Made by a program: the position numbers and the translations under genes
Assembly: GCA_017849555.1 (NCBI GenBank)
Contig: JAFIGU010000004.1
Coordinates: 19,203-83,202, forward strand
Source: Sphingomonas sp.
Lineage (GTDB): Bacteria > Pseudomonadota > Alphaproteobacteria > Sphingomonadales > Sphingomonadaceae
Direction of reading: 5' to 3'
Length of the DNA stretch: 64,000 nucleotides
The notes under the pieces: generated by a model
Databases searched by the model: none
Told to the model about the DNA's origin: nothing
The model's input: the letters and a program-made list of their open reading frames with translations, nothing else
Part shown: in pieces, positions 2,510-34,616 of the stretch
Numbering within the stretch: position 1 is the stretch's first letter
Layout: the number at the start of each line of letters is the position of its first letter

Positions 2510-2528
2510 TAGTATGTAACGCAAACGA
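2510..2528 (-). promoter_or_regulatory. Shared 19-bp operator, site A
   Basis: Read on the minus strand: TCGTTT GCGTTAC ATACTA. It matches the window-wide motif TTGTAT-N7-ATACAA and ends 71 bases before the O-demethylase start. It lies inside the 167-bp gap between the SDR and the O-demethylase, so the demethylase probably has its own regulated promoter. It is one of the weaker copies (right half ATACTA). Confidence 0.6.
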
Positions 2529-2609
2529 TTCGCGCGCGGCTGATCGTGGCGGGCGCGGCCCGGCGCCCCGGTGCGAGACCGGGTGGCGCTGAAGTAAAGC
2601 AGCCGATCC

Positions 2610-3359
2610 CTAAAGCGTCAGCGTATCGAGAATGCCGCCGTCGACCGCCCAGCTCTGCCCGGTGACGTGGCTCGCCGCGTCGGAGAGGAGGAAGGCGGCG
2701 ACCTCGGCCAATTCCGCCGCAGTGCCGGTGCGGCCTTGCGGGGTGCGCGCGCGCATCGCGTCGTGCGCGTCAGGGCCGAGGTTCGCGAGCATCTCGGTTT
2801 CGATGAAGCCGGGGATGATGCAATTGACGCGCACCCCGTGCGGCGCGGCTTCCAGCGCGGCGGCGCGGGCGAGCCCGAGCAGCCCGTGCTTGGCCGCGAC
2901 ATAGCCGGGATTATGCGCCATGCCGCGCACGCTCGCCAGGCTGCCGGTGACGAGGATCGCGCCGCACCGCCGTGCGATCATCCCCGGCAGCACGCGCTTC
3001 ATCGCGCGGAACGGGGCGAGCAGGTTGATGCGCAGCACCTCCTCGAAGGCCGCATCGTCATAATCGGCGAAGGGAGCGAAGGCGCCCCCGGTGCCGGCAT
3101 TCGCGAACAACCCGTCGACCGGGCCGAGCGCGCGTTCCGCCGCATCGATCGCGGCAAGCAACGCCGCGGGGTCGCCGACATCGGCGGGCGCGGCGAAGCT
3201 CTCGCCTTCGATCGCCGCGCGCACCGCCGCCAGCGCGGCGGCGCGGCGCGCGATCAGCGATACGCGCGCACCGCGTTCCGCCAGCAGCAGCGCGGTCGCG
3301 CGCCCGATCCCCGAGGAGGCGCCGGTGACGAGGATGTGACGGCCGGCGAGATCGTTCAT
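2610..3359 (-). CDS. Short-chain dehydrogenase/reductase, FabG-like
   Basis: A 249-aa classical SDR. Visible motifs are TGASSGIG (NAD(P) binding), NAG, a Ser in VTGSLAS and YVAAK (catalytic Tyr and Lys), with the FabG-like end GQSWAVDGG. ATG at 3359 is chosen; a TTG four codons upstream is also open, and the ribosome site is weak for either. It follows the amidohydrolase in a compact minus-strand block. A role in oxidising a lignin side-chain alcohol is inferred from context only. It is a different SDR subfamily from the LigD-like proteins elsewhere in the window. Confidence 0.82.
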   Translation of the reverse strand: MNDLAGRHILVTGASSGIGRATALLLAERGARVSLIARRAAALAAVRAAIEGESFAAPADVGDPAALLAAIDAAERALGPVDGLFANAGTGGAFAPFADYDDAAFEEVLRINLLAPFRAMKRVLPGMIARRCGAILVTGSLASVRGMAHNPGYVAAKHGLLGLARAAALEAAPHGVRVNCIIPGFIETEMLANLGPDAHDAMRARTPQGRTGTAAELAEVAAFLLSDAASHVTGQSWAVDGGILDTLTL

Positions 3360-3386
3360 CGCCGCTGCCAATCGAACGGCGCCATC

Positions 3387-4259
3387 TCAGCCGAGCCCCA
3401 GTACCCGCGCGGCATTATCCTTCATGATCAGCGGCAGCACCTCGTCGCGGAAGCCGGCCTCACGCGCGGCGTCGATCCATTTTTCCGGGCGGATCAGCGG
3501 CCAGTCCGATCCGAACATCATCTTATGTTTGAGCTGGGTGTTGGCATATTGGATCACCTGCTTGGGGAAATATTTCGGCGACCAGCCGGACAAGTCGATA
3601 AATACATTGTCCTTGTGCAGCGCCATCGACAGGCTTTCGTCGGTCCACGGCCAGCTCGGGTGCGCGAGAATGAATTTGATCGTCGGGAAATCGACCGCAA
3701 CGTCGTCGATCAGCATCGGCTGGCCATATTTGAGCCGCAGCCCGCCGCCCGCCGGCATCCCGGTGCCCATCCCCGAATGCCCGGTGTGGAAGATCGCGGG
3801 CAGGCCATATTCGGCGATCACCTCATAGATCGGATAGGCGATGCGATCGGCGGGGTGCGCATTCTGCGCGATGCCGTGGAACTTGAAGCCCTTGACCCCA
3901 TAATTCTCGATCAGGTCGCGCGCCTCGCGCGCGCCATATTTGCCTTTGTGCGGATCGATCGAGGCAAAGGGGATGACGATATCGTCGTGCTGCGCGGCGA
4001 TTTCCGCGACTTCGTAATTGCTGATCCGCTTGGCCCCCATGCCGCATTCGGCATCGACCGTGAACAGGCAGAAGGCGATGTTCTTCTCGCGGTAATAAGC
4101 GATCGTCTCGGGGATCGTCGGGCGCTTGCGGTCGGCCTTGAAATAGGTCGAGGCCGCGTCGAAGAATTCGGCCATCACCGGGTCTTCCGGATCGTGGCAT
4201 GAGACTTCGGCGTGGACGTGGACGTCGATCGCGGCGACCTTGGCGGGATCGATGGGCAT
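3387..4259 (-). CDS. Amidohydrolase family protein, possible aryl beta-ketoacyl-CoA hydrolase
   Basis: A 290-aa metal-dependent TIM-barrel hydrolase of the amidohydrolase-2 family. It begins with the metal motif IDVHVHAE, has FKFHGI, FHTGHSG and ILAHPSWPW in the middle, and ends with MFGSDWPLI, which carries the last Asp. Members of this group act as 4-hydroxyphenyl-beta-ketoacyl-CoA hydrolases in coenzyme-A routes for hydroxycinnamates; others are decarboxylases. Position beside an aryl-CoA ligase and a PQQ alcohol dehydrogenase favours hydrolysis of a vanilloylacetyl-CoA-like compound to vanillate and acetyl-CoA. That is inference. ATG 4259 is preceded by AAGGAATA. Confidence 0.78.
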   Translation of the reverse strand: MPIDPAKVAAIDVHVHAEVSCHDPEDPVMAEFFDAASTYFKADRKRPTIPETIAYYREKNIAFCLFTVDAECGMGAKRISNYEVAEIAAQHDDIVIPFASIDPHKGKYGAREARDLIENYGVKGFKFHGIAQNAHPADRIAYPIYEVIAEYGLPAIFHTGHSGMGTGMPAGGGLRLKYGQPMLIDDVAVDFPTIKFILAHPSWPWTDESLSMALHKDNVFIDLSGWSPKYFPKQVIQYANTQLKHKMMFGSDWPLIRPEKWIDAAREAGFRDEVLPLIMKDNAARVLGLG

Positions 4260-4278
4260 TGGATATTCCTTCGTGGTT

Positions 4279-6411: not shown

Positions 6412-6428
6412 GCCTCTTTCGCCTCCAC

Positions 6429-7994: not shown

Positions 7995-7995
7995 G

Positions 7996-9586: not shown

Positions 9587-11959
9587 TCAGAACGTCTTCT
9601 TCACCGTCAGCATCCATTCGCGCGGCCGGCCGATCTGCTGATAGGCGGTGCCGGAGAAGGAGTAGACCGAGGCGAACATCGAATTATAGTAATATTTGTC
9701 GAACAGATTGGTGACCGAGGCCGAGAACTCCAGGTCTTCCTTGCTATTGCGCCACGTCAGCCGCGCATTGACCAGCGAATAGGCCGGCAGATAATAAGCA
9801 AAGCCGAGCGCGCGGCCGGTGAACTGCCGGTCGTTATACGTATAATCGACGCGCGGAGTGATGCTGCCGGCATTGCCGCCGAGTTGCGCCTTATACTGGA
9901 TCCCGGCGCTCGCCTGCCACGCGGGGGAGAAGGTCGCCGGATCGCCGATGCGATAGTCGCTGCCCAGCGCCGCGGATACCGTGGTCAATCGCGAGTGGAT
10001 GTAGCTCATCGACCCGTCGATGTTCAGCCCCGGGGTGGGGGTGGCGCTGATCTCGAGCTCGACGCCCTTGTTGCGCGCATTGCCGGCATTGGCGACCACG
10101 CCGCAAGGGCCGCCGCCATAGGCGGTGCAGTCGCGCAGCGGGAGCTGGATGTCCTTATATTCGTCGATATAGGCGGAAAGATTGAGGCGCAGCCGGCGAT
10201 CGAACAGGTCGGTCTTGATGCCGATCTCGTAATTGGTCAGCGTCTCGGGCTTGAACGTGCCCTGCAGCGCCTGTTGCGCGGTGAACGGCCGCGCGCTGGT
10301 GCCGCCGCCCTTGAAGCCGGTTGAGATCGTTCCGTAGAGCAGCACCGCCGGGGAGAAGCGATAGTCGACCGAGGCGCGATAATCCACGCGGTCGCCGTCG
10401 AACTTCGCGGTCAGGCCGTTGAGCGCGCCGAGCCCGAACGCGGCGGCAAGACCGCTCAGCGGCGAGCCATCCGGGTTGACGCGGACGAACGTATAATCCT
10501 TGTGTTCCTTCGTGTAGCGGATGCCGCCGGTCAGCGTCAGCCCCTCGATCCCCGGGTGGATGATCGCGGTGGCGAAGGCGGCCTTGCTGTTCGCGTTGAC
10601 CGGATCGTTGCCCATGAAGGTAAGATACGCGCCCGGCACGATATAGCCGATGTTCTGCAGCGTGTAATAGGTCGTCTTCTGCGACGAATAATAGCCGCCG
10701 ATCGTCCATTCCACCGCGCGATCGAGGAAGGCGCCGTTGAGCCGGACTTCCTGGCTGAAGAAATGGTGGCGCAGCCGGTTGAAGCCGCCGGCTTCCTTGC
10801 GCGTATTGGGGTCGCCCGGGGTCGATTCGACGCCCGGCGAGAAATCGTCATCGGTGCCGAAGGTCGCGGTATAGGCGCGATAGGCGGTGATCGAGTTGAG
10901 CGACAGATCGTCGGCGAGCTTGAACACCGCGTTCAGCGATCCGCCACCGCCCTTGAACTGATTGGTGTGCTGGAAATTATAGCCCTTGGTGCTGAAGTCC
11001 GCGAAAGTGCAGTAACGCCCGCAGAGATAATTGGGATTGGTCGAATAAGTGGTGACTTCGGGCGCGTTGGTCTGGTTCTGGTAGGTATAGTCGCCCGACA
11101 AGGTGATATCCACCGCGTCGCTGGGGTTCCAGCGCAACTGGCCGCGCAGGCCTTTATAATCGGTCTCGCCCAGCTTATCGACGGTGCAGGTCCCGGCGGC
11201 GCGGGTGGCCGCGATATTCTCCGGATTGCCCGGCCGGGCACAGCCGTAGTCGACCAGATCGACGAAGCCGTCCTGCCGCTTGAAGACGCCCGCGACGCGG
11301 CCGAACAAGGTGTCGGTGATCTTGAAATCGGCGCTGCCGCGCAGGTTGATCGCGTTGCGCGCGCCATAGCCGGCCTCGACATAGCCGCCCTCATTGGCGT
11401 CGGGCCGCTTGGAATAGAGCTTGATCGCGCCGCCTTCGGAATTGCGCCCGGCGAGCGTGCCCTGCGGCCCGCGCAGGATTTCGACGCGGTCGAGATCGAG
11501 CAGGTCGAACACCCCGCCGGTCAGCGTCGCATAATAAACGTCGTCGATGTAAAGCCCGACGCCGGGCTCGTACGCCGGGTTGAAGTCGAACTGCCCGACG
11601 CCGCGGATCGAGGCGCCGATCGACGGGCCGAATGCGCCGCCGGCGGGGACGACGACCACGCTGGGGGCCTGTTTCGCGACCTGGGTGATGTTGTTCTGGC
11701 TGCGCGCGTCCAGCATCATGCTGTCCACGGCGGTGATCGCCAGCGGCACGTCCTGCAGGCGCTGGTTGCGGAATTGCGCGGTGACGACGATGTCCTGCTG
11801 GCCGGTCGCCGGGGCTTCCGCTGCGGCGGGAGCCGCCGGCGCGGTGCCGGCGTCCTGCGCGAAGGCGGGCGCCGCGATCGCCAGCGTGGACAGAAGGGCG
11901 GCGGTCGAGGCCGAGGCGCGCAGCCCCGCCGTCAGACGCTTGTGGGTGAGATGGTGCAT
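9587..11959 (-). CDS. TonB-dependent outer-membrane receptor (lignin-aromatic locus)
   Basis: A 790-aa receptor. Signal peptide MHHLTHKRL...AAPAFAQ, then a Pro/Ala linker and a TonB-box region DIVVTAQFRNQRLQDVPLAI. The plug contains VEILRGPQGTLAGRN, typical of the plug domain, and the protein ends as a beta-barrel with a terminal aromatic (VKKTF). It is of the ordinary receptor class rather than the very large oligo-peptide/sugar class. In sphingomonads such receptors carry lignin dimers across the outer membrane, and the genes that follow encode dimer-cleaving enzymes. ATG 11959 with AGGAGAGG is used rather than the longer frame. The divergent region carries a shared operator (12043-12061). 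Confidence 0.88.
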   Translation of the reverse strand: MHHLTHKRLTAGLRASASTAALLSTLAIAAPAFAQDAGTAPAAPAAAEAPATGQQDIVVTAQFRNQRLQDVPLAITAVDSMMLDARSQNNITQVAKQAPSVVVVPAGGAFGPSIGASIRGVGQFDFNPAYEPGVGLYIDDVYYATLTGGVFDLLDLDRVEILRGPQGTLAGRNSEGGAIKLYSKRPDANEGGYVEAGYGARNAINLRGSADFKITDTLFGRVAGVFKRQDGFVDLVDYGCARPGNPENIAATRAAGTCTVDKLGETDYKGLRGQLRWNPSDAVDITLSGDYTYQNQTNAPEVTTYSTNPNYLCGRYCTFADFSTKGYNFQHTNQFKGGGGSLNAVFKLADDLSLNSITAYRAYTATFGTDDDFSPGVESTPGDPNTRKEAGGFNRLRHHFFSQEVRLNGAFLDRAVEWTIGGYYSSQKTTYYTLQNIGYIVPGAYLTFMGNDPVNANSKAAFATAIIHPGIEGLTLTGGIRYTKEHKDYTFVRVNPDGSPLSGLAAAFGLGALNGLTAKFDGDRVDYRASVDYRFSPAVLLYGTISTGFKGGGTSARPFTAQQALQGTFKPETLTNYEIGIKTDLFDRRLRLNLSAYIDEYKDIQLPLRDCTAYGGGPCGVVANAGNARNKGVELEISATPTPGLNIDGSMSYIHSRLTTVSAALGSDYRIGDPATFSPAWQASAGIQYKAQLGGNAGSITPRVDYTYNDRQFTGRALGFAYYLPAYSLVNARLTWRNSKEDLEFSASVTNLFDKYYYNSMFASVYSFSGTAYQQIGRPREWMLTVKKTF

Positions 11960-12042: not shown

Positions 12043-12061
12043 TTGTGAGTTAGGCATACAG
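12043..12061 (+). promoter_or_regulatory. Shared 19-bp operator, site B
   Basis: TTGTGA GTTAGGC ATACAG. It lies between the divergent receptor gene (start 11959) and CmcJ-like gene (start 12193) and could serve both. Both half-sites deviate from TTGTAT/ATACAA by one or two bases. Confidence 0.55.
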
Positions 12062-12192
12062 TTTCGTGGGTGACAAGGAGTAGGCGAACTACCACCATAA
12101 CCGCTGACAGCCTGTGCGGACGCGCTTGCGTGCTGCGCCTTCACCCCGCACAATAGTAAGCAAAACAAACAATTGATTTGGGAGACGCGGCG

Positions 12193-12984
12193 ATGCGGGC
12201 GGCGATCAATTATGTGGCGCGCGGGCAGGGGCGGATGCGCTATTTCGCCAACGATTCCCGGCGCGACACCGTTGTGCTGGCGCCGGAGGTGATGGCGATT
12301 ACCGATTCGCGCGGGTTGGCGACAGGGCTGGACCGCGAGGGCTTCGCGCTCGTGAAGCATTGCAGCGCGGTAGCGGATTTCGCCGATAGTGAGGCGGTGG
12401 CGCGCGTCTATCCCGCGGAGATCGAGCGGTTGATCGCCGAGCTCGCCGGCGCCGACGCAGTGGTGGTGACGGGCGCGGGGGTGCTGCGTTTCGCGGAGCG
12501 TTCGGCGCAGTCCGGCGCGCTGGACAATTCGCGACCCGCACGGTTCGCGCATGTCGACGTGTCGGATGTCGCCGCCGCGCAATTCGCCGATCGCGCGCGC
12601 CCGGCGGATCGCGCCGCGCCGCGCCGGACCGCGCATTACAATGTCTGGCGTGCGATCTCCCCCGCGCCGCAGGACGTGCCGCTCGCTTTATGCGACGCGC
12701 GGACGGTGGCGGCGGGCGATCTGTTGCCGGCGGACGCGATATTCGATCGCGACGGCGCCGACCTCTGGTCGTTCGAGGGGCTGCTCGCGGCGCATTCGCC
12801 GGCGCATCGCTGGCATTGGTTCTCCGATCTCACCCGCGACGAGGCGATCGTGTTCAAGACCAACGACAGCGACGCCGGCCATGCGCATTGCGTGCCGCAT
12901 GTCGCGTTCGACAACCCCGACTGCCCCGCCGAAGCGCCGCCGCGCGCGTCGATCGAGATGCGCGCGATCGCCTATTGGTTTTAG
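12193..12984 (+). CDS. CmcJ/NvfI-family putative oxidoreductase
   Basis: A 263-aa protein of the CmcJ/NvfI/AsaB-like family. Evidence is the ordered set of family motifs: HYNVWRA, DVPLALCD, HRWHWFSDL, then FKTNDSD and PHVAFDNP. Family members are known mainly from secondary metabolism (cephamycin CmcJ, fungal hydroxylase/desaturase homologues); many are uncharacterised and their cofactor is disputed. No signal peptide. ATG 12193 follows GGAGA with a 7-base gap, so it is preferred over the upstream TTG. It is divergent from the TonB receptor and shares operator site B. It ends 2 bases from the converging SDR. Its job in lignin catabolism is unknown. Confidence 0.75.
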   Translation: MRAAINYVARGQGRMRYFANDSRRDTVVLAPEVMAITDSRGLATGLDREGFALVKHCSAVADFADSEAVARVYPAEIERLIAELAGADAVVVTGAGVLRFAERSAQSGALDNSRPARFAHVDVSDVAAAQFADRARPADRAAPRRTAHYNVWRAISPAPQDVPLALCDARTVAAGDLLPADAIFDRDGADLWSFEGLLAAHSPAHRWHWFSDLTRDEAIVFKTNDSDAGHAHCVPHVAFDNPDCPAEAPPRASIEMRAIAYWF

Positions 12985-12986
12985 GG

Positions 12987-13943: not shown

Positions 13944-13962
13944 TCGTTAGTCTTGCATACAA
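13944..13962 (+). promoter_or_regulatory. Shared 19-bp operator, site C
   Basis: TCGTTA GTCTTGC ATACAA, between the divergent SDR (13913) and SnoaL (13983) starts. Its right 13 bases GTCTTGCATACAA are identical to those of the site in front of the lignostilbene dioxygenase at 19483-19495. Confidence 0.7.
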
Positions 13963-13982: not shown

Positions 13983-14696
13983 ATGCCAGAGACGGATATC
14001 GCCGCGCTCGCGCAGCGGCTCGATGCGCTGGAGCATCGCATCGGCGAACTGGAGGACATCAACGCGATTCGCCGGCTGCACTGGGCCTATGGCTATTATA
14101 TCGATTTCAACCTGCCCGATCAGGTGGCGGAGCTGTTCGCCGATGATGGCGTGGTGGTGTTCCTGTCGGGCGAATATGTCGGCCATGCCGGTATCCGGCG
14201 GCTGTACGGCGACTGGATTCAGCAGCGTTTCACCGGCGGCCGGCCGGGGCCGGTCGACGGGCTGCTGCTCGATCATTTTCAGATGCAGGACGTGATCACC
14301 GTCGCGCCCGATCGGCGCACCGCCAAGGGCCGGTTCCGCGGGATGCTGTTCGGCGGCTGGCATGATGATTTCCAGGACACACGCGAGGAAGGCATGCCGC
14401 AGCAGTTCATGGAAGCGGGCATTTACGAGAATGACTATGTGCGCGAGGATGGCGTGTGGAAGATCAGCCGCCTCGATTATATGATGCAATGGCAGGCGGA
14501 TTATGAGGCGGGCTGGGCGCACACCACCGCGCATCTCCAACCCGCCGCGCGCACCTTTCCGGAAGACCCGATCGGCCCGGACCGGCTGCTCCCGGCGAGC
14601 CACCACCGGCGGACCTGGCCGTATCGTCAGGACGTGCCGATGCATTTCGCGCATCCGCGCTTCGGCAAGATTCTCGCATCGGACGTGCGACGCTAG
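13983..14696 (+). CDS. SnoaL/NTF2-like protein, LdpA-like
   Basis: A 237-aa single-domain SnoaL/NTF2 fold. It starts with a predicted helical heptad segment (residues 5-22, LAQRLDALEHRIGEL), then IRRLHWAYGYYIDF, VDGLLLDHFQMQDVITV and WKISRLDYMMQWQADYEAGW. The same frame of motifs appears in the paralogue at 25292-26044. LdpA, a known sphingomonad member of this fold, removes formaldehyde without a cofactor from 1,2-diarylpropane-1,3-diols to give lignostilbenes. The lignostilbene dioxygenase encoded nearby makes an LdpA-like lyase role attractive, but other members are dehydratases or decarboxylases. AGGGAGAGGA precedes ATG 13983. It is followed by an aromatic-acid transporter in the same direction. 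Confidence 0.72.
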   Translation: MPETDIAALAQRLDALEHRIGELEDINAIRRLHWAYGYYIDFNLPDQVAELFADDGVVVFLSGEYVGHAGIRRLYGDWIQQRFTGGRPGPVDGLLLDHFQMQDVITVAPDRRTAKGRFRGMLFGGWHDDFQDTREEGMPQQFMEAGIYENDYVREDGVWKISRLDYMMQWQADYEAGWAHTTAHLQPAARTFPEDPIGPDRLLPASHHRRTWPYRQDVPMHFAHPRFGKILASDVRR

Positions 14697-18977: not shown

Positions 18978-19424
18978 CTATTCGTGGATCAGGCGCAGCA
19001 ACCGCACGAGCGTTGCGGTTTCTTCCTTCGTGAAGCGCGCTTTCAACCACGCTTCATGCTCGAGGATGCAGTTGCGCGCGGCGAGCAGCGCATCGCGGCC
19101 CGCATCGGTGAGATGCAGCTGCAGCCGCCGCCGGTCGCCCTGCGCCCCGCCGCGCTCGACGAAGCCGCGTTTTTGCAGCCGATTGATGATCGCCATCACC
19201 GTCGCGCGGTCCATCTGCAGCCGGCGGCCGATATCCGCCTGCGCGATATCGGGATTGTCGTCGATCAGCCACAGCGCCGAAACCTGCTTCTGCGTCAGCC
19301 CCAGATCGCCGAAGGTTTCGGTGAAGTGCCGATAGACTGCGCCATGAGCCAGCCGGATATGGAATCCGACGATCTCGTCGATTTCCCCCAGCGCGCCACT
19401 CTCCGTCCCAACCAGGTGATTCAT
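18978..19424 (-). CDS. MarR-family transcriptional regulator, FerC-like candidate
   Basis: A 148-aa winged-helix regulator. The recognition region IGRRLQMDRATVMAIINRLQKRGFVER and wing GAQGDRRRLQLHLTDAG are typical MarR. FerC, a MarR protein of SYK-6, represses ferBA and responds to hydroxycinnamoyl-CoA; this one is divergent from a lignostilbene dioxygenase and the shared operator lies between them (19477-19495), so autoregulation is likely. I infer that it binds the nine copies of TTGTAT-N7-ATACAA in the island. ATG 19424 is used; a GTG at 19445 is also in frame and the ribosome site does not decide. Confidence 0.85.
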   Translation of the reverse strand: MNHLVGTESGALGEIDEIVGFHIRLAHGAVYRHFTETFGDLGLTQKQVSALWLIDDNPDIAQADIGRRLQMDRATVMAIINRLQKRGFVERGGAQGDRRRLQLHLTDAGRDALLAARNCILEHEAWLKARFTKEETATLVRLLRLIHE

Positions 19425-19468
19425 CCTAACAGGATGGGCTTGCACCGGGGCACGGTCAATCGGCGCGG

Positions 19469-19496
19469 TTGAAAAAATGTTTGTCTTGCATACAAT
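19469..19496 (+). promoter_or_regulatory. Promoter of the lignostilbene dioxygenase gene
   Basis: TTGAAA (19469-19474), 16 bases, TACAAT (19491-19496) is a good sigma-70-like promoter about 33 bases before the GTG start. The operator 19477-19495 covers the spacer and the -10 box, as expected for repression by a MarR protein. Confidence 0.6.
19477..19495 (+). promoter_or_regulatory. Shared 19-bp operator in the MarR/dioxygenase divergent promoter
   Basis: ATGTTT GTCTTGC ATACAA. It lies 53 bp from the MarR start and 34 bp from the dioxygenase start. It shares 13 identical bases with site C. Confidence 0.7.
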
Positions 19497-19528: not shown

Positions 19529-20998
19529 GTGGCGCATTTCCCGGACACGCCGTCGTTCACCGGATTCAACACGCCGTCGCGGATCGAGGCGGATATCGCC
19601 GATCTCGACGTGACGGGCGCGATCCCGCCCGAGCTCGACGGGGCCTTTTATCGCGTCCAGCCCGATCCGCAGTTCCCGCCGCGGCTGGGGGACGATATCG
19701 CTTTCAACGGCGACGGCATGATCACGATGTTTCGCTTCAGGCACGGCCGCGTCGATTTCCGCCAGCGCTGGGCGCGGACCGACAAGTGGAAGCTGGAGCA
19801 TGACGCCGGCGAGGGGCTGTTCGGCGCCTATCGCAATCCGCTGACCGACGACGCGCGGGTGAAAGGCCGTATCCGCGGCACCGCCAACACCAATGCCTTC
19901 ATCTACGGCGGCAAATTATATGCGTTGAAGGAGGATTCGCCCGCGCTGGTGATGGACCCGGCAACGCTGGAGACCGAGGGATATACCTGGTTCAACGGCG
20001 CGATGACCGGCCAGACCTTCACCGCGCATCCCAAGATCGATCCTGAGACGGGCGACATGATCGCCTTCGGCTACGCGGCGAAGGGCGTGCTGACGCGCGA
20101 GATGACCTATTATGTCGTCTCGCCCGAGGGCGAATTGAAGCAGGAGCTATGGTTCGAGCCGCCTTATTACGCGATGATGCACGATTTTGCGATCACCCCC
20201 GATTACGCGCTGTTCCATGTCGTGCCGTCGACCTCGAACTGGGAGCGGCTGGAAAAGGGGCTGCCGCATTTCGGCTTCGACACGACGCTGCCGGTCTATC
20301 TCGGCGTCCTGCCGCGCCGGCCGGGTACGACCGCCGCCGACATACGCTGGTTCAAGCGCGATAATTGCTTCGCCAGCCATGTGATGAACGCGTTTCAGGA
20401 GGGGACAAAGATCCACTTCGACACCCCCGAGGCGAAGAACAACATGTTCCCGTTCTTCCCGGACATCCACGGCGCGCCGTTCAAGCCGATGGAGGCGGCG
20501 AGCTATCTTACGCGCTGGACGGTGGACATGGCGTCGAACGGCGACGCGTTCGAAAAGGTCGAGCGGCTGACCGATATGATCGGCGAATTCCCGCGGATCG
20601 ACGATCGCCGCACCGGGCTTTCCTACCGCTACGGCTGGATGCTGGTGATCGACCCCGCCAAGCCGGTCGAGCTCAAGGGCGGCAGCGCGGCCGGGATGGT
20701 GATGAACACGCTGGGGCTGATCGATCACGAAACGGGGCGCGAGCAGAAATGGTGGTGCGGCGCGTCGTCGTCGTTGCAGGAGCCATGCTTCATCCCGCGC
20801 CACAAGGATGCGGCGGAGGGCGACGGCTGGATCGTCCAGGTGTGCAACCGGCTGGAGGAGCACCGATCCGATCTGCTGCTGTTCGACGCGCTTGATATCG
20901 AAAAGGGGCCGATCGCCGAAATCCATATCCCGATCCGGCTGCGCTTCGGGCTGCACGGCAATTGGGCCGATGCCGCAGAGATCGGGGTGACCGGCTAG
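19529..20998 (+). CDS. Lignostilbene-alpha,beta-dioxygenase (carotenoid cleavage oxygenase family)
   Basis: A 489-aa seven-bladed propeller enzyme of the CCO family, length as for LsdA/LsdD. The four iron-binding His are visible in order: TAHPKID, MMHDFAI, ASHVMNA and the C-terminal GLHGNW. Bacterial members of this length in lignin degraders split the central double bond of 4-hydroxystilbenes with O2, giving two aromatic aldehydes such as vanillin. Stilbenes come from diarylpropane (beta-1) or phenylcoumaran (beta-5) units. GTG 19529 is preceded by GGAGAGGA. It is divergent from the MarR gene. It converges on an MFS gene, with a hairpin between. Confidence 0.88.
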   Translation: MAHFPDTPSFTGFNTPSRIEADIADLDVTGAIPPELDGAFYRVQPDPQFPPRLGDDIAFNGDGMITMFRFRHGRVDFRQRWARTDKWKLEHDAGEGLFGAYRNPLTDDARVKGRIRGTANTNAFIYGGKLYALKEDSPALVMDPATLETEGYTWFNGAMTGQTFTAHPKIDPETGDMIAFGYAAKGVLTREMTYYVVSPEGELKQELWFEPPYYAMMHDFAITPDYALFHVVPSTSNWERLEKGLPHFGFDTTLPVYLGVLPRRPGTTAADIRWFKRDNCFASHVMNAFQEGTKIHFDTPEAKNNMFPFFPDIHGAPFKPMEAASYLTRWTVDMASNGDAFEKVERLTDMIGEFPRIDDRRTGLSYRYGWMLVIDPAKPVELKGGSAAGMVMNTLGLIDHETGREQKWWCGASSSLQEPCFIPRHKDAAEGDGWIVQVCNRLEEHRSDLLLFDALDIEKGPIAEIHIPIRLRFGLHGNWADAAEIGVTG

Positions 20999-23867: not shown

Positions 23868-25295
23868 TCAGCCCTCGTGCACCGCCTTGGTGACGAGGCA
23901 GGCGGTAACGCCTTCGGGACCGTCTTCCGCGCCGTGGCCGGACCATTTGACGCCGCCGAACGGCGAATCCGCGCCGCCGATCATCGTCGTGTTGATGCCG
24001 ACCATCCCGCTCTCGATCGCACGCGAGACGCGGCGCTGGCGCTGCGCGTCCTGCGTCCAGGCATAAGCGGCGAGGCCATAAGGCAGGCGGTTCGCCTCGG
24101 CGATCATCGCTTCCTCGTCGCGATAGGGGTTGATCAGCGCGATCGGGCCGAACGGCTCCTCGTTCATCACCGCGGCGTCGAGCGGAACGTCGGCGAGGAC
24201 GGTAGGCCGGTAGAAGTAGCCGCGGTTGCCGATCCGCTTGCCTCCGGTGCACAGCCGCGCGCCGCGCGCGGTGGCATCGGCGATCAATCGCTCCATCGCT
24301 TCGGGGCGGCGCGGGTTGGCCATCGGCCCCATCCCGGTCGCCGGATCGAGCCCGTCACCGACGACGATCCGCCCGGCGCGCTCGGCAAAGCCGTCGCGGA
24401 AGCGCGCGAACACCGCCTCGTGGACGATGAACCGCGTCGGCGAGACGCAGACCTGCCCCGCGTTGCGATATTTGGAGGCCGCCATCGTATCGAGCGCGCG
24501 GTCGATATCGGCATCGTCGAACACCAGCACCGGGCCGTGGCCGCCGAGCTCCATCGTGGTGCGCTTCATATCCTCCGCCGCGAGCCGGGCGAGATGCCGG
24601 CCGACGGTAGTGGAGCCGGTGAAGCTCAATTTGCGGATTACCGGCGAGGCGAGCAGATGGCGCGATACCTCGTCGGGCACGCCGAACACCGCTTGCGCGA
24701 CATCGGGCGGAAGGCCCGCGTCGAGCAGGCATTGCAGCACGCCGAGCGCGGAGGCCGGGGTTTCTTCCGCCGCCTTCAATATCACCGAACAGCCCGCCGC
24801 GATCGGCGCGCCGAGCTTGCGCCCCGGATTGCCGAGCGGGAAATTCCACGGTGCGAAGGCGGCGACCGGGCCGACCGGCTCGTGGCTGACGGTCGAACGC
24901 TGTCCGGCGGGGCGGACCAACGTCCGCCCGTAGAGGCGAAAGGCTTCGCCGGCATAGAATTCGAACAAGGCGGCATTCATCGCCACCTCGACCTTCGCTT
25001 CGGCGAGCGTCTTGCCTTGTTCGAGCGTCGCGACGCGGGCGAGATCGTCGGCCCGCTCGCGCAACAGCCGCGCCGCGCCGTTGAGGACGGCGGCGCGCTG
25101 CTGCGGGGTCGACTCGCGCCACGACCGGAAGCCGCGCGCGGCGGTATCGAGCGCGCGGTCCAGATCGGCCGGGTCCGCGAGCGGCAGCTCGGCGATCGGC
25201 TCGCCCGTCGCGGGATTGACCACCGCGCTCGTGCGCCGTCCGGCGCCAGCGATCCGCTCCCCGCCGATGACGAGGTGAAGGTCGGGGTAGCTCAC
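23868..25295 (-). CDS. NAD(P)-dependent aldehyde dehydrogenase
   Basis: A 475-aa ALDH of the succinate-semialdehyde-dehydrogenase-like group. Motifs: FAPWNFPLGNPGRK (cofactor site), FTGSTTVG, the catalytic Glu in TMELGGHGP, the catalytic Cys in NAGQVCVSPTRF and the end region PFGGVKWSGHG. It probably oxidises an aromatic aldehyde, for example 5-carboxyvanillin or a formyl intermediate, to the acid that ligW decarboxylates; this rests on gene order. GTG start 25295 overlaps the SnoaL stop by GTGA (25292-25295). It is not in the same subgroup as the ALDH at 29696-31117. Confidence 0.85.
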   Translation of the reverse strand: MSYPDLHLVIGGERIAGAGRRTSAVVNPATGEPIAELPLADPADLDRALDTAARGFRSWRESTPQQRAAVLNGAARLLRERADDLARVATLEQGKTLAEAKVEVAMNAALFEFYAGEAFRLYGRTLVRPAGQRSTVSHEPVGPVAAFAPWNFPLGNPGRKLGAPIAAGCSVILKAAEETPASALGVLQCLLDAGLPPDVAQAVFGVPDEVSRHLLASPVIRKLSFTGSTTVGRHLARLAAEDMKRTTMELGGHGPVLVFDDADIDRALDTMAASKYRNAGQVCVSPTRFIVHEAVFARFRDGFAERAGRIVVGDGLDPATGMGPMANPRRPEAMERLIADATARGARLCTGGKRIGNRGYFYRPTVLADVPLDAAVMNEEPFGPIALINPYRDEEAMIAEANRLPYGLAAYAWTQDAQRQRRVSRAIESGMVGINTTMIGGADSPFGGVKWSGHGAEDGPEGVTACLVTKAVHEG

Positions 25296-26044
25296 TGCGC
25301 GGCCTTCGCCTTTTCGCGGGCGACATCGCCCTCCCAGCGTTCGGCGACAATCTCCTCGCCGGTGACCGGATGCTTCAGGTGGAAGGGCACCAATTTATGC
25401 GTCGGCCACAGCCAGTGATCGGCGATCAGCTCGTCCGGCCCGGTCGGGTCCTCGGGGAAGGTCTGGCGCGGGAAGGGGACATATTCGGGCGGCGTATTGG
25501 CCCAGCCCGCGTCGAAATCGGCATGCCATTGCGGCATATAATTGAGCACGGCGATGCGCCACACGCCGTCGACCTTGCGATAGGTGTTCTCGTAGATGCC
25601 GCCTTCCCACCATTGGCGCGCGCCGAGCATCGGATTGGCGGGATCGGCATAATCCTTGTGCCGCCCGGCTTGCATCATCGAGCGCGCGCGGCCATGCGCG
25701 ATCTCGCCGCCCGGGGCGACGGTGATGATGTCCTGCAGCTGCGGGTGATCGAGCAGGAAGCCGTCGATCGGACCGTTGGTGCCGTGGGTGAAGCGCTTCT
25801 GGAAGCGCTCGACATAGAGCCGGCGAATGCCTTCCTTGCCCTTCCACACCCCGCCGAAGAAGCGCACCTCGCCATCGTCGGTGAACAGGTCGACCGTCTC
25901 GCGATAAAGGCATTTGTCGATGAGATAGCCGTAAAGGTGCTGGAGCTTGCGGATATCGAGCTCGTCTTCACGCCGGGCGAGGCGGCGGGACAGATCCGCA
26001 ACGGCCTGTTCCAGCGCGGCGACACGGGGGGCGACATCGGCCAT
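25292..26044 (-). CDS. SnoaL/NTF2-like protein, second LdpA-like paralogue
   Basis: A 250-aa single-domain protein related along its length to the one at 13983-14696. It has an N-terminal helix rich in charged heptads (VAALEQAVADLSRRLARRE), then LDIRKLQHLYGYLIDK, IDGFLLDHPQLQDIITV and WRIAVLNYMPQWHADFDAGW. Candidate acid/base residues are the conserved His and Asp in LDHPQLQD. LdpA-type deformylases and other non-oxidative lyases share this fold; which reaction this one does cannot be read. AGGAGAG precedes ATG 26044, and an almost perfect shared operator (26059-26077) lies 15 bases upstream, so it has its own regulated promoter. Confidence 0.72.
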   Translation of the reverse strand: MADVAPRVAALEQAVADLSRRLARREDELDIRKLQHLYGYLIDKCLYRETVDLFTDDGEVRFFGGVWKGKEGIRRLYVERFQKRFTHGTNGPIDGFLLDHPQLQDIITVAPGGEIAHGRARSMMQAGRHKDYADPANPMLGARQWWEGGIYENTYRKVDGVWRIAVLNYMPQWHADFDAGWANTPPEYVPFPRQTFPEDPTGPDELIADHWLWPTHKLVPFHLKHPVTGEEIVAERWEGDVAREKAKAAQ

Positions 26045-26058
26045 CTTCACTCTCCTGA

Positions 26059-26077
26059 TCGTATGCTTTACGTACAA
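26059..26077 (+). promoter_or_regulatory. Shared 19-bp operator, site E
   Basis: TCGTAT GCTTTAC GTACAA, in the 56-bp gap between the MFS stop (26101) and the SnoaL start (26044). A bound repressor would also overlap the start of the leader. It is nearly palindromic. Confidence 0.65.
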
Positions 26078-27542: not shown

Positions 27543-27570
27543 TTGGCAAATTGTATGCGTTGAATACAAT
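27543..27570 (+). promoter_or_regulatory. Promoter of the LigD-like SDR gene
   Basis: TTGGCA (27543-27548), 16 bases, TACAAT (27565-27570). Operator site F covers the spacer and the -10 hexamer, the same geometry as at the dioxygenase promoter. Confidence 0.55.
27551..27569 (+). promoter_or_regulatory. Shared 19-bp operator, site F (perfect half-sites)
   Basis: TTGTAT GCGTTGA ATACAA. Both half-sites are exact inverted copies; this is the reference copy of the motif. It is between the divergent MFS (27507) and SDR (27606) starts. Confidence 0.75.
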
Positions 27571-28508: not shown

Positions 28509-28509
28509 G

Positions 28510-29637: not shown

Positions 29638-29662
29638 CGGAAGCCTTTCGTTTCTACTTAGC

Positions 29663-29682
29663 CCCTCCCCTGAAGGGGAGGG
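29663..29682. repeat. Intercistronic hairpin between ALDH and MetE-like genes
   Basis: CCCTCCCC (29663-29670), loop TGAA, GGGGAGGG (29675-29682). A perfect 8-bp stem in the 58-bp gap between the ALDH stop and the MetE-like start, both minus strand. It could reduce read-through or process the mRNA. Confidence 0.5.
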
Positions 29683-29695
29683 CTATTGGACGCGC

Positions 29696-31117: not shown

Positions 31118-31169
31118 CGCTCTCCTCGAAAATCCCGCCGCGCGGAAGACACGCGGCATTTGCCGGATA

Positions 31170-31188
31170 TTGTGTGCTACGGATACAA
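31170..31188 (+). promoter_or_regulatory. Shared 19-bp operator, site G
   Basis: TTGTGT GCTACGG ATACAA. It is the ALDH-proximal of two copies in the 201-bp region between divergent ALDH and ferA. Confidence 0.7.
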
Positions 31189-31228
31189 TCTTGGCAAGCG
31201 GATTCCGTGGGCGACATTGCCTTGCAAA

Positions 31229-31247
31229 ACGTTTGCCAGGGATACAA
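31229..31247 (+). promoter_or_regulatory. Shared 19-bp operator, site H
   Basis: ACGTTT GCCAGGG ATACAA. The ferA-proximal copy. TACAAT (31243-31248) may be the ferA -10 box, with TTGCAA (31222-31227) as a weak -35 at a short 15-base spacing. Two sites 59 bases apart (start to start) may allow cooperative binding. Confidence 0.65.
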
Positions 31248-31301
31248 TATACGCATCCCGAGCCGTTGAATGCGGCCGATTCGGATGGAGAGGAACGCAA
31301 G

Positions 31302-31322
31302 ATGCAGGCAGGCCGGCGATGA
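31302..31322 (+). CDS. Six-codon leader ORF coupled to ferA
   Basis: ATG 31302 encodes M-Q-A-G-R-R and stops with TGA at 31320-31322, overlapping the ferA ATG (31319-31321) as ATGA. The strong ribosome site GGAGAGGAA (about 31286-31294) is spaced for the leader ATG, while ferA itself has only a weak AGG-rich stretch. ferA has no nearby in-frame start upstream. So ribosomes probably load on the leader and restart at ferA. Expression has not been shown. Confidence 0.5.
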   Translation: MQAGRR

Positions 31323-33460
31323 GCACCGCCCTGATCGACGAACGCAAATCCGATGCTTCCCCATCTCGCGATCGGCTCGACCGGCTGCTTCGTGCGCGCT
31401 CGGTGGCGATCGTCGGTGCATCGGATCGGCCGGGGGCGCTCGGCGCGTCGGTGCTCGCCAATCTTGACCGCGCCGGGTTCGATGGCGCGATCCATCTCGT
31501 CAATCCCAACCGCGCCGAGATCGGCGGCCGTCCGTGCGTCGCCTCGGTCGCCGATCTGCCGCGCGGGATCGACGCCGCGGTGCTGGCGATTCCGCGCGCC
31601 GGGGTGCTCGATGCGATGCGCGGGCTGGCCGAGCGCGGCGTCGGCGCGGCGGTGATCTTTTCCGCCGGCTTCGCGGAGGATGGCGCGCAGGGGCTTGCTG
31701 ATCAGCGCGAGATCGCGCGGATCGCCGCGGCGGCCGATATGGTGGTCGAAGGCCCCAATTGTCTCGGCCTCGTCAATTTCCGCGACAAATTGCCGCTGAC
31801 CTTCATCGATATGCCCGAGGCGCGCGCGGAAGGCGCGCGGCGGGTCGGCATCGTCTCGCAATCCGGCGCGATGGCGGCGGTGCTCGCGACGACGATGATC
31901 GCGCGCGAGGTGCCGCTGGGCTGTTATGTCTCGACCGGGAACGAGGCGGCGACCGGGGTCGAGGATTTCGTCGCGCGGCTGGTCGACGATCCCGATATCG
32001 CGGTGATCGTGATGATCGTCGAGCATTTCCGGCGGCCGGGTGCATTCCTCGCGGCGGCGCGCGCCGCGCGGTCGGCGGGCAAGCCGGTCGTCCTGCTCCA
32101 CCCCGGCCGCAGCGCGGCGGGCGCGGCGAGCGCGGCGACGCATACCGGGGCGATGGCCGGCGATCATGCCGTGATGCGCACCCATGTCGAACATGCCGGG
32201 GTGATCCTGGTCGAATCGCTGGAGGAGCTGGGCGACGTGGTGGAGATCGCCACGCGCTGCCCGGCGTTGCCCGGCGGCGCGACGGGCGTCGTCGCCGAAT
32301 CGGGCGCGTTCAAGGCGATGATGCTCGATCTCGCCGAGGAGGTGGGGCTGAACCTGCCGCCGCTCGGCGACGCCGACAGCCCGGCGTTGCGCGCGGCCTT
32401 GCCGCCATTCGTGCCCGTCTCCAACCCGCTCGACGTCACCGCGCAGGGGCTCGTCGATCCGGGGATGTACGGTCGGGTGATCGCCGCGCTCGCCGAGGAT
32501 GCGCGGATCGACACGATCGTCGTCACGCTGATCCAGACCGATATCCGCACCTCGTCGGTAAAGTTCGCCGCGGTGGCCGAGGCGCTTGCCGCGCGCGGCG
32601 GGGTCAAGCCGGTGGTGGTCGCCGGGGTGGACGAGGGCGGCGGGGTGCAGCCGAGCGATATCGCCGCATTGCACGCGCTGGGCGTCACCTATCTCCCCAC
32701 CGCCGAGCGTGCATTGCGCGCATTGGCGCGGCTCACCAATGCGGCGGGCGCGGCGCGGGCGGGACAGGCGCAAACGACTGCGCCGTTCGACGATCTGCCC
32801 GCCGCCGGCGCGACGATTCCCGAATATCGCGCCAAGCAATTGCTCGGCGCGCGCGGCATCGCCTTCCCGACCTTCACGCTGGCGCATGACAAGGACAGCG
32901 CGGTCGCCGCGGCCGAGCGGCTGGGTTATCCGGTGGTGCTCAAGGCGCAGGCCGCCGCGTTGCCGCACAAGAGCGACGCCGGCGGGGTGATCGTCGGGCT
33001 GGCCGATGCCGCGGCGGTCGCGGCCGGCTGGGATCGGCTGCTTGCGCAGGTCGGCGCGGCGCGGCCCGCTGTGGTGCTGGAAGGCGTGGTGGTCGAACCG
33101 ATGGCGCCGCGCGGGGTGGAATTGATCGTCGGCGGGCGGAACGATCCCGCCTGGGGGCCGGTGATCCTGATCGGTTCGGGCGGGGTGGCGGCGGAATTGC
33201 TGCACGACGCGCGGCTGGTGCCGACCGGGCTGTCCGAGGAAGCGATCGCGGCGGAAATCCGCGGGCTGAAGCTTGCCCCGCTGCTCGACGGGTTTCGCGG
33301 CGCACCGGTGGCGGACATTGCGGCGGTGGCGCGGATCGTTGCGGCGCTCGGCGCGGTCCTCGACGCCAATCCGGCGATCCGCGAAGTCGATCTGAACCCG
33401 GTGGTGGTCTATCCTAAGGGCGAGGGCGCGATCGCGCTCGACGCGCTGATCTCGCTATGA
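31319..33460 (+). CDS. ferA: Feruloyl-CoA synthetase, ADP-forming acyl-CoA synthetase type
   Basis: A 713-aa enzyme with the layout of SYK-6 FerA rather than of AMP-forming ligases. Order: CoA-binding domain (about residues 20-120, SVAIVGASDRPG), succinyl-CoA-ligase-like flavodoxin domains with the phospho-His region THTGAMAGDHAV, a second such domain, and a C-terminal ATP-grasp domain (about 485-700, VVLKAQAAALPHKSDAGGV). It makes feruloyl-CoA from ferulate, CoA and ATP, and may take p-coumarate or sinapate. The product feeds ferB. ATG 31319 follows the leader ORF. It is divergent from the ALDH gene and overlaps the next small gene by ATGA. Confidence 0.88.
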   Translation: MSTALIDERKSDASPSRDRLDRLLRARSVAIVGASDRPGALGASVLANLDRAGFDGAIHLVNPNRAEIGGRPCVASVADLPRGIDAAVLAIPRAGVLDAMRGLAERGVGAAVIFSAGFAEDGAQGLADQREIARIAAAADMVVEGPNCLGLVNFRDKLPLTFIDMPEARAEGARRVGIVSQSGAMAAVLATTMIAREVPLGCYVSTGNEAATGVEDFVARLVDDPDIAVIVMIVEHFRRPGAFLAAARAARSAGKPVVLLHPGRSAAGAASAATHTGAMAGDHAVMRTHVEHAGVILVESLEELGDVVEIATRCPALPGGATGVVAESGAFKAMMLDLAEEVGLNLPPLGDADSPALRAALPPFVPVSNPLDVTAQGLVDPGMYGRVIAALAEDARIDTIVVTLIQTDIRTSSVKFAAVAEALAARGGVKPVVVAGVDEGGGVQPSDIAALHALGVTYLPTAERALRALARLTNAAGAARAGQAQTTAPFDDLPAAGATIPEYRAKQLLGARGIAFPTFTLAHDKDSAVAAAERLGYPVVLKAQAAALPHKSDAGGVIVGLADAAAVAAGWDRLLAQVGAARPAVVLEGVVVEPMAPRGVELIVGGRNDPAWGPVILIGSGGVAAELLHDARLVPTGLSEEAIAAEIRGLKLAPLLDGFRGAPVADIAAVARIVAALGAVLDANPAIREVDLNPVVVYPKGEGAIALDALISL

Positions 33461-33663
33461 CGCGGCAGCCGGAAAGCGGCGCGCCCGCGGCCCCGGCTTG
33501 CCGTTGCGATCGCGCGCGCAGTTGCTGGTACGACAATGTTTCGGGGGGCGGCTCGCTGCCGTGCCACTGCGCGTCGTGCCGGCGCGCCTTTCATATGGAG
33601 ATGCTCGCCGGGATCGCGATCGCCGCCGCATCCGCGGTGGTGATCGTGGCGATCGCTGGGTAA
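33457..33663 (+). CDS. Small Cys-rich membrane protein coupled to ferA
   Basis: A 68-aa ORF whose ATG overlaps the ferA stop (ATGA, 33457-33460). The first 45 residues hold Cys in a CRCDRARSC cluster and a CHCASCRRAFH cluster that could bind zinc. The last 22 residues (MLAGIAIAAASAVVIVAIAG) form one membrane helix with no positive tail, so the N-terminus is probably cytoplasmic. I do not recognise the family. The coupling to ferA argues it is made; its short length and lack of any known relative argue for caution. Confidence 0.45.
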   Translation: MTRQPESGAPAAPACRCDRARSCWYDNVSGGGSLPCHCASCRRAFHMEMLAGIAIAAASAVVIVAIAG

Positions 33664-33693
33664 AAAATGATCCGTTCGCCCTGGTTAGCATAG

Positions 33694-33725
33694 GCCGTCA
33701 TGCCGGATCTGATCGGCATGACGGC
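33694..33725. terminator. Hairpin between convergent ferA-side and ferB genes
   Basis: GCCGTCATGCCG (33694-33705), loop of 8, CGGCATGACGGC (33714-33725): a perfect 12-bp stem between the small gene stop (33663) and the ferB stop (33741). Likely bidirectional terminator. Confidence 0.65.
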
Positions 33726-33740
33726 ACGCGGGCGCTGCAA

Positions 33741-34571
33741 TCAGGCGCTGACCTTCGACTGGTCGTAGGCGCCGAGACCGGGCTTGTAGCTCTTTTCGTC
33801 GATGAACTGGCGGATGCCTTCCTTGCGGCCCTCCGACGGGTCGTGGAAATTGGCCGCTTCCTGCATCCGCACGAGATAATCCTCGGCTTCGTCATAGGTC
33901 ATCGCGCCGACGCGGCGCACCGCATCCTTGGCGAATTTGAGCGCGACCGGATTCTTCTGGAGCAGGATCGCCGCGACCTCGCGCACGCGCGCTTCGAGCC
34001 GTTCGAGCGGCACGCTCTCGTTGACGAGACGCATCGCCGCCGCCTGCTGGCCGTCGATCAGCTCGCCGGTCAATGTCAGCCACATCGCGTCGCGCATCGG
34101 CAGCAGGTCGACCACCACCTTGGTCACCCCGCCGCCGGGGAGGATGCCCCAGTTGATTTCCGACAGGCCGAATTTCGCTTCGTCGGCGCAGATCGCCAGA
34201 TCGCAGGAGAACAAGGGACCGAAGCCGCCGCCGAAGCACCAGCCGTTGACCATGGCGATCGTCGGCTTCTGATACCAGCGCAGCCGGCGGAACCAGCCAT
34301 AGCTCTCGCGCTGCGACTTGCGCACGCCGCGCAGCCCCTGCGCCTCGGTCTCGCGGAAATATTCCTTGAGATCCATGCCGGCCGACCAGGCCGCGCCTTC
34401 GCCGCCCAGCACCAGCACGCCCACGTCGTCACGATATTCGAGCTCGTCGAGCACCTCCATCATGCGGCGGTTGAGCGTGGGGCTCATCGCGTTGCGTTTT
34501 TCCGGGCGCGCGAAATTCACCCAGGCGATGCGGTCCTCGACCCGAAACGTAACGACCTGCTTCTCGCTCAT
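33741..34571 (-). CDS. ferB: Feruloyl-CoA hydratase/lyase (hydroxycinnamoyl-CoA hydratase-lyase)
   Basis: A 276-aa crotonase-fold enzyme matching HCHL of Pseudomonas fluorescens closely. Diagnostic stretches are RPEKRNAMSPTLNRRM, AWSAGMDLKEYFRE, PTIAMVNGWCFGGGFGPLF and FGLSEINWGI, which holds the catalytic Glu. EDYLVRM carries the substrate Tyr, and KSYKPGLGAYD closes the protein. It hydrates feruloyl-CoA and splits it to vanillin and acetyl-CoA. GGAGGAGAGG precedes ATG 34571. It converges on ferA instead of sharing its operon, unlike ferBA in SYK-6. Operator site I lies 27 bp upstream. Confidence 0.93.
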   Translation of the reverse strand: MSEKQVVTFRVEDRIAWVNFARPEKRNAMSPTLNRRMMEVLDELEYRDDVGVLVLGGEGAAWSAGMDLKEYFRETEAQGLRGVRKSQRESYGWFRRLRWYQKPTIAMVNGWCFGGGFGPLFSCDLAICADEAKFGLSEINWGILPGGGVTKVVVDLLPMRDAMWLTLTGELIDGQQAAAMRLVNESVPLERLEARVREVAAILLQKNPVALKFAKDAVRRVGAMTYDEAEDYLVRMQEAANFHDPSEGRKEGIRQFIDEKSYKPGLGAYDQSKVSA

Positions 34572-34597
34572 GACCTCTCCTCCGTGCGATCTGATAT

Positions 34598-34616
34598 ATG
34601 TATCATTGGCATACAA
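34598..34616 (+). promoter_or_regulatory. Shared 19-bp operator, site I
   Basis: ATGTAT CATTGGC ATACAA, 27 bp before the ferB start. This is the expected target in a FerC-type circuit. Confidence 0.7.

Follow-up and report, generated by a model that had tools for sequence, protein, structure and literature searches.

A DesR-type operator in a Sphingomonas lignin-dimer island and its possible division between two MarR-type repressors

The MarR-type repressor DesR of strain SYK-6 has a published regulon of ligM-metF-ligH, desB, and desR, with the site sequences IR-R, IR-B, and IR-M and with vanillate/syringate as reported effectors (PMC6888825). In vitro, vanillate at 50 mM fully abolished DesR binding, and DesR kept binding probes with one mutated half-site (PMC6888825). 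A second MarR protein, Saro_0803 of N. aromaticivorans, is encoded divergently from nov1 (Saro_0802), an lsdD orthologue (PMC12997858, PMC8191317); it is described as the resveratrol sensor of one promoter, with resveratrol weakening its binding, and its inverted repeat was published as GCAATA------TATTGC (PMC10046596). We analyzed 64,000 nucleotides of a Sphingomonas sp. genome (GenBank assembly GCA_017849555.1, contig JAFIGU010000004.1, positions 19,203 to 83,202; here called the window) in which one MarR gene and ten copies of a 19-bp box, TTGTAT-N7-ATACAA, accompany genes for the breakdown of lignin dimers. We propose, with a probability of roughly 55%, that two repressors use this one box type and split the island, such that DesR would take the dimer/vanillate part and a second MarR protein, MarR2, the ferulate part.

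The pathway concerned can be outlined from homology, PMC12997858, and general background. The NTF2-type lyases LdpA and PcfL yield stilbenes from beta-1/beta-5 dimers, followed by cleavage by LsdD; ferulate is then reached via FerD and a decarboxylase and is taken on to vanillate by FerA/FerB together with an aldehyde dehydrogenase (ALDH), and LigM demethylates vanillate.

The window MarR and its operator boxes

The PF12802 profile, scored on 150 of 174 candidates, has 29 matches in the genome, and the only one inside the window (C95:19203-83202 in our numbering) is the gene at 18978-19424/19445, in agreement with a sequence-only reading of this DNA that had counted one MarR gene. Its best match in SYK-6 is DesR (SLG_12870), at 68% identity (64% over a multiple alignment), versus 22% (full alignment) or 31% (local) for FerC. 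The published site IR-R sits 5′ of the SYK-6 orthologue, and in a phylogenetic tree the window MarR falls inside the DesR clade (support, 100/99). We conclude from these comparisons that the window MarR is an orthologue of SYK-6 DesR. The sequence-only reading had supposed a FerC-like regulator; the low identity to FerC and the separate tree group rule out that identity. The gene is divergent to lsdD and ~14 kb from ferB, and the FerC-like arrangement, divergent to ferB, was not found here.

The window shares with SYK-6 the orthologous protein, the same box, boxes at both desR (19477) and ligM (2510), and a divergent lsdD gene, which is 70% identical to the gene divergent from SYK-6 desR. It differs in that the sections of PMC6888825 consulted do not list lsdD among the DesR targets and in that SYK-6 has no box at ferBA. 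Residue mapping indicates that the window MarR is also orthologous to Saro_0803: at an offset of 2, 10 of the 13 residues named in the accessible part of PMC10046596 are identical (F30, F43, F47, W61, K55, R82, A87, R91, D106, and R108), whereas K109, Q110, and C39 are replaced by R107, L108, and V37. DesR and Saro_0803, described for different purposes with vanillate and resveratrol, appear to be one orthologous family. The effectors reported for these two orthologues, as far as the available text goes, are those named above instead of feruloyl-CoA, the effector that had been suggested for the window protein. Given that the complete loss of SYK-6 DesR binding was reported at 50 mM vanillate, stilbenes or dimer products may suit the family better as ligands. 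The complete repeat GCAATA------TATTGC was absent from the 13 promoters inspected (11 from Novosphingobium, one from another member of the Sphingomonadales, and one from Sphingopyxis; nov1 of N. aromaticivorans lay outside this set).

With up to three mismatches, TTGTAT-N7-ATACAA has 10 matches in the window; shuffled sequences averaged 2.29, and none of 100 shuffles reached 10. Nine of them, with 0 to 3 mismatches, begin at 2510, 12043, 13944, 19477, 26059, 27551, 31170, 31229, and 34598, exactly where the sequence-only reading had placed them, and the tenth, at 12154-12172, had been overlooked. With the chosen start codons all ten are intergenic, as had been claimed, in a stretch (1036-34620) that is ~9% noncoding; this placement depends on those starts, and some longer alternatives would overlap boxes. 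The distance from box to start extends up to ~130 nt, as described before, and down to 8 nt (at SnoaL2) rather than 15. A matrix built from only the three DesR sites published for SYK-6 placed the ten boxes at ranks 1 to 10 of ~64,000 positions (12.2 to 20.9 bits; next-best position, 9.6). A matrix built from the ten boxes themselves scored them at 20.4 to 27.2 bits (next, 12.4), and with leave-one-out matrices every box stayed inside the top ten. The earlier description of a MarR-type operator with a copy in the promoter of the MarR gene is supported.

Genome-wide, the loose motif at up to three mismatches had fewer matches (132) than its reversed control (198), and it was dropped as a genome-wide marker. 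The refined motif TTGTATGNNWNNCATACAA, at the same tolerance, had 14 matches versus 3 in the control, and 9 of the 14 lie inside the window, a stretch that makes up 1.3% of the genome. In SYK-6, TTGTATGNNWNNCATACAA gave 7 matches, the three published DesR sites among them, against 5 in the control; without enrichment, it is no genome-wide detector in that strain. Stray matches in the Sphingomonas sp. genome lie at C6:6847, C82:6071, C94:85296, and C117:74326.

Boxes at DesR loci of relatives

We scanned the DesR loci of the best 80 of 191 relatives (1.41 Mb; one, L048, is near-identical to the window) for boxes of at least 17 bits, with a promoter zone of -320 to +30 and with gene homologues defined at an E value of 1e-10 over 35% of query length, paralogues included. 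There were 143 boxes, compared to 3 in reversed sequences and 0 to 9 with each of 20 column-permuted matrices; the SYK-6-only matrix, at a threshold of at least 16 bits, found 136 versus 6 in the control. These controls exclude chance or composition as the source of the boxes. Homologues of window genes follow 125 of the 143, and the other 18 were assigned to no gene.

Boxes preceded lsdD in 49 of 52 loci, ligM homologues in 23 of 25, and desR in 52 of 80, lsdD and desR mostly having one common divergent box. They also preceded many homologues of the putative dimer genes: the transporter MFS26101 (14 of 19), the dehydrogenases SDR27606 (11 of 17) and SDR12987 (6 of 9), SnoaL2 (8 of 16), and SnoaL1 (4 of 5). 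Counts for MTHFR, ACS, and MetE were 5 of 16, 4 of 10, and 3 of 5, respectively, and those for ALDH29696, ALDH23868, and the TonB receptor were 3 of 9, 3 of 28, and 2 of 12; three ALDH29696 rows (L125, L097, and L085) of our per-locus list of best boxes were set aside because their entries stem from an artefact of a negative start, which leaves these counts unaffected. Boxes preceded ferB in 2 of 17 loci and ferA in 0 of 7, two figures that are not independent, as ferA often lies behind ferB. MFS21119 (0 of 35) and amidohydrolase 22723 (0 of 32) had none and look operon internal.

The link between dimer cleavage and O-demethylation drawn by the sequence-only reading thus recurs in other genomes. 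The predicted DesR-box regulon extends beyond the known targets ligM, desB, and desR, with lsdD and the dimer-pathway genes as candidate additions. Apart from Saro_0803 at nov1, such an extension was not met in the open-access papers searched, a set without the 2020 DesX/DesR paper. The presence of the box in the lsdD/desR promoter of nearly all lsdD-bearing DesR loci leads us to predict that sphingomonads share a conserved switch for the beta-1/beta-5 dimer pathway, and the boxes name promoters to examine and repressors relevant to the engineering of dimer use. In SYK-6 itself, a strong box of DesR type (scores of 20.1 and 18.9 bits) lies between open frames at NC_015976.1 ~4067458 (L163:7459-7477); it is not among the three published sites and is a possible further DesR target.

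Ferulate boxes and a second MarR protein

In the SYK-6 ferC-ferB gap we read a different palindrome, ATGCTAT-N5-ATAGCAT, and no DesR-type box was found in the 15-kb fer region of that strain (best score, 7.7). Of 30 ferB loci examined, this genome included, four had a box scoring 17 bits or more, namely those of this genome, G288, G253, and G001. Among 396 genomes searched, the ferB genes closest to that of the window (87 to 89% identity) belong to G288, G253, G001, and G119, in the last of which the box is at the ALDH gene adjoining ferB; window ferB is likewise 87 to 89% identical to ferB of MarR2-linked fer clusters. Each of these four genomes has MarR2, a MarR other than DesR, and the DesR search found no DesR orthologue in G001 or G119 (G253 and G288 were outside that search). 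In G288 (L202) and G001 (L204), two ferulate modules, both equipped with a ferB gene, lie a few kilobases apart; the MarR of one is FerC-like (49% identical to SYK-6 FerC), and that of the other is MarR2.

MarR2 occurred in 14 of 393 genomes (E ≤ 1e-20), with a box scoring 11 bits or more at 9 of the 14 loci; the five without one include that of this genome. Two neighboring stretches make up one island in S. asaccharolytica, S. mali, and Sphingomonas AR_OL41, the first half reading box-ferB / ferA-box-MarR2-box-ALDH-MetE-ligM2 and the second SDR-box-MFS-box-SnoaL2-ALDH-amidohydrolase-MFS / lsdD-box-desR. MarR2 and its flanking boxes are in the fer half, and desR and its box are in the lsd half. 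The order MarR2-box-ALDH is also present in S. baiyangensis (L232) and G325 (L212). In the window, the gap between the facing ferA and ALDH genes contains two boxes and lacks MarR2. Alignment of the promoters with those of relatives is clear on the ALDH side and at ferB and, on the ferA side, is mainly at the box. The simplest reading of these arrangements is loss or relocation of MarR2 from the ferA/ALDH gap.

This genome does have a MarR2, outside the window (G000:C48:4228-4668), as an open frame of 154 codons adjoining a ligM paralogue. It is 56 to 59% identical to MarR2 of G001, G288, and G253 and 69 to 71% identical to that of G325, G201, G202, and G204. Unlike MarR2 of the relatives (L225-L227), it is not beside fer genes and has no flanking boxes. 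Between it and the ligM paralogue (L198, ~3400-4200, minus strand) lies what looks by eye like an IclR-type regulator. In S. lycopersici, MarR2 is on the same contig as desR, ~21.7 kb beyond the position of window base 1; its fer genes are not on the inspected part of that contig.

The tree separates DesR (100/99) from MarR2 (99/97) and places SYK-6 FerC in neither group; one unassigned MarR falls among MarR2, and long branches make the deeper order unsure. Retention of R80, M84, and N88 in both DesR and MarR2 (R, T, and G in SYK-6 FerC) agrees with a common box. SYK-6 FerC resembles the present case as a MarR adjoining ferulate genes and differs in its clade, in the palindrome of its gap, and in its distance from desR on the chromosome. 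By sequence, the solved structure closest to DesR is CouR of Rhodopseudomonas palustris (PDB 6c28), and the same holds for MarR2.

We compared the two kinds of box by log-odds scores (positive, DesR; negative, MarR2), using 105 distinct DesR-locus boxes (without L048-L051 and L054; 19 of the 80 DesR loci were checked for MarR2) and 17 MarR2-associated boxes (without duplicates, L203:3039, and L218 TTGTATCCCAGGCGGACTA of 15.2 bits). Position 8 is C or T in DesR boxes (0.44/0.53) and mostly C in MarR2 boxes (0.82); C at position 9 has a frequency of 0.06 versus 0.47, and G at position 7 a frequency of 0.92 versus 0.71. A model trained on 8 MarR2 boxes gave negative scores to all 9 held-out fer/ALDH-side boxes (-1.4 to -16.0), and the leave-one-out area under the curve (AUC) was 0.93 with 8 MarR2 boxes and 0.97 with all 17. 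In the window, the 8-box model gave positive scores to the boxes at 2510 (+11.3), 12154 (+11.0), 13944 (+8.4), 26059 (+2.4), 12043 (+1.4), and 19477 (+0.6) and negative scores to those at 27551 (-0.3), 31170 (-3.4), 31229 (-7.9), and 34598 (-14.0); with all 17 boxes, 12043 moved to -0.1 and 27551 to +1.0. The three fer boxes are thus on the MarR2 side, 31170 weakly so, and six of the seven others are on the DesR side. Earlier DesR/MarR2 models gave a similar picture. Elsewhere in the genome, a perfect copy of TTGTAT-N7-ATACAA (C3:78568-78586; L016:8569-8587) scores -9.4, the MarR2 flavor, ~20 nt before a TonB receptor gene; a beta-lactamase-fold gene comes next, and an alginate-export-type gene lies farther along. 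A weaker box of MarR2 flavor (14.7 bits; L017:4351-4369) lies 5′ of the window on C95, between a second TonB receptor gene and a second dioxygenase gene.

The identity of the sites, the orthology, the conserved placement, and the distinct neighborhood and base preference of the fer boxes are computational results, whereas binding, repression, ligands, and a move of MarR2 are predictions. According to the two-repressor proposal, DesR would bind TTGTATGY-N3-RCATACAA boxes and repress its own gene, lsdD, ligM, and the beta-1/beta-5 dimer genes (two SnoaL-type genes, the SDR genes, the MFS transporter gene, and perhaps the TonB receptor gene). Release of DesR would depend on an aromatic intermediate or product, either vanillate/syringate or a stilbene. 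The ALDH/ferA and ferB boxes would be the same element in a second flavor, with C instead of C/T at position 8, C favored at position 9, and G at position 7 relaxed. By ancestry they would belong to MarR2, which in this genome would act from outside the window and, to judge from its neighbor genes, probably senses a hydroxycinnamoyl-CoA. Control of the pathway would then fall to DesR at both ends (dimers and vanillate) and to MarR2 in between (ferulate), and cross-binding is possible. A more specific version, to which we give slightly less than even odds, is that sensors from separate clades, DesR for vanillate/stilbene and MarR2 for hydroxycinnamoyl-CoA, use a near-identical 19-bp box, partly insulated by positions 7 to 9, and so divide one continuous lignin-dimer island, MarR2 having left its site to act in trans. 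DesR and MarR2 would then offer an example, open to testing, of one operator type shared out between two repressors. The single MarR regulon of the sequence-only reading would survive in its dimer and O-demethylation part; its ferulate part is doubtful, given the second MarR flanking the boxes in three relatives, the different base preference, and the MarR2 orthologue outside the window.

Several observations weigh against this division. The boxes at 12043, 19477, and 27551 score near zero, and on leave-one-out 3 of 17 MarR2 boxes came out above zero and ~5% of DesR boxes were misplaced. Among 14 DesR-half boxes of MarR2-bearing relatives, 9 were positive, 1 was zero, and 4 were negative (-0.8, -2.7, -2.9, and -11.9), including the desR boxes of S. 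asaccharolytica (-0.8) and S. mali (-2.9); because DesR-half boxes reach such scores, 31170 is not clearly separated. The MarR2 boxes are few and were found with a matrix that took in the fer sites. Because orthologous promoters are alike by descent, the flavor shows ancestry and not necessarily the present reader. No box was found in the promoter of this genome's MarR2. Finally, MarR2 presence was examined in 20 genomes (19 of the 80 DesR loci and SYK-6), and two DesR genomes with a ferB box, L097 (28.6 bits) and L081 (18.6 bits), had no MarR2 at an E value of 1e-12; a box of 18.6 bits also precedes an ALDH-ferB-ferA run in L066, which was outside that search.

These last points would suit a single regulon in which DesR reads all ten boxes, from dimer uptake and cleavage via ferulate to vanillate O-demethylation, and MarR2 does another job. 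The SYK-6 DesR matrix ranks all ten boxes top, and the tolerance of SYK-6 DesR for one mutated half-site (PMC6888825) points the same way. However, 15 of 17 ferB and all 7 ferA homologues in DesR loci lack a box within the promoter zone, and our first DesR model puts 31229 (10.5 bits) and 34598 (12.9 bits) lowest of the ten; it scores 31170 (17.6 bits) level with 12043 (17.3 bits) and the other six at 21.4 to 26.5 bits. We consider control by DesR alone unlikely but worth keeping in view, and the two DesR genomes with a ferB box make some DesR control of fer genes possible. It is improbable that the fer boxes merely survive from a MarR2 gene that once adjoined them and are now read by neither repressor: MarR2 is indeed missing from a gap that it occupies in three relatives, but the three boxes score 21.3 to 24.0 bits (with a matrix of which they are part) and an open MarR2 frame persists in the genome. 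Control of everything by a FerC-type MarR through feruloyl-CoA is very improbable in view of the identities to FerC and DesR and of the different palindrome, without a DesR-type box, in the SYK-6 ferC-ferB gap, even though fer genes bear the box here and CouR is the closest solved structure by sequence.

Genes and boxes along the window

At the left end, the vanillate O-demethylase-type gene ligM (1036-2439, minus strand; GCV_T, 1.6e-35) encodes a protein 78% identical to the SYK-6 protein beside IR-M, and its DesR-type box (2510-2528; log-odds, +11.3 to +14.3) is 70 nt from the ATG at 2439. The TonB-dependent receptor gene (9587-11959, minus; Pfam, 1.7e-40) is preceded by a box of ambiguous flavor (12043-12061; -0.1 to +2.4). 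The tenth box (12154-12172; rank 5 with the SYK-6 matrix; +11.0 to +12.8) is 20 nt 5′ of the ATG at 12193 of an uncharacterized gene (12193-12984, plus) that had been called CmcJ and has no Pfam match at 0.001. SDR12987 (12987-13913, minus; adh_short, 1.3e-47) and SnoaL1 (13983-14696, plus; SnoaL_4, 2.7e-28) flank a DesR-type box (13944-13962; +8.4 to +10.0). SnoaL1 matches PDB 8abt, named only SnoaL-like, with an E value of 3.9e-114 and is probably an LdpA-type lyase of the NTF2 superfamily, an enzyme class taken from PMC12997858.

The desR gene (18978-19424, minus; ATG at 19424, alternative GTG at 19445; MarR_2, 3.2e-16) and the lignostilbene dioxygenase gene lsdD (19529-20998, plus; RPE65, 6.9e-133; best PDB match, 6xm6, E value of 6.7e-256) diverge from a DesR-type box at 19477-19495 (+0.6 to +0.7). 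SnoaL2 (25292-26050, minus; SnoaL_4, 1.3e-26 for the longer open frame) would be PcfL-type, judging from its position beside a FerD-like ALDH gene. The DesR-type box before it (26059-26077; +2.3 to +2.4) ranks first with the SYK-6 matrix. The transporter gene MFS26101 (26101-27507, minus; MFS_1, 1e-39) and SDR27606 (27606-28508, plus; adh_short, 4.9e-48) are separated by a perfect copy of the motif with ambiguous flavor (27551-27569; -3.8 to +1.0).

ALDH29696 (29696-31114, minus; Aldedh, 8.9e-156; 83 to 87% identity in relatives) is paired with the fer genes. Its box (31170-31188; -3.4 to -5.7), weakly MarR2 flavored, aligns with the MarR2/ALDH box of relatives, and the MarR2-flavored box at 31229-31247 (-6.7 to -10.5) is on the side of the feruloyl-CoA synthetase-type gene ferA (31319-33460, plus), whose product has ATP-grasp_5 and CoA-binding domains and is 57 to 58% identical to the SYK-6 protein beside ferB. 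The hydroxycinnamoyl-CoA hydratase/lyase-type gene ferB (33741-34571, minus; ECH_1, 4.6e-46; 64% identical to SYK-6 FerB) has a MarR2-flavored box (34598-34616; -8.9 to -14.6) 26 nt from its ATG at 34571.

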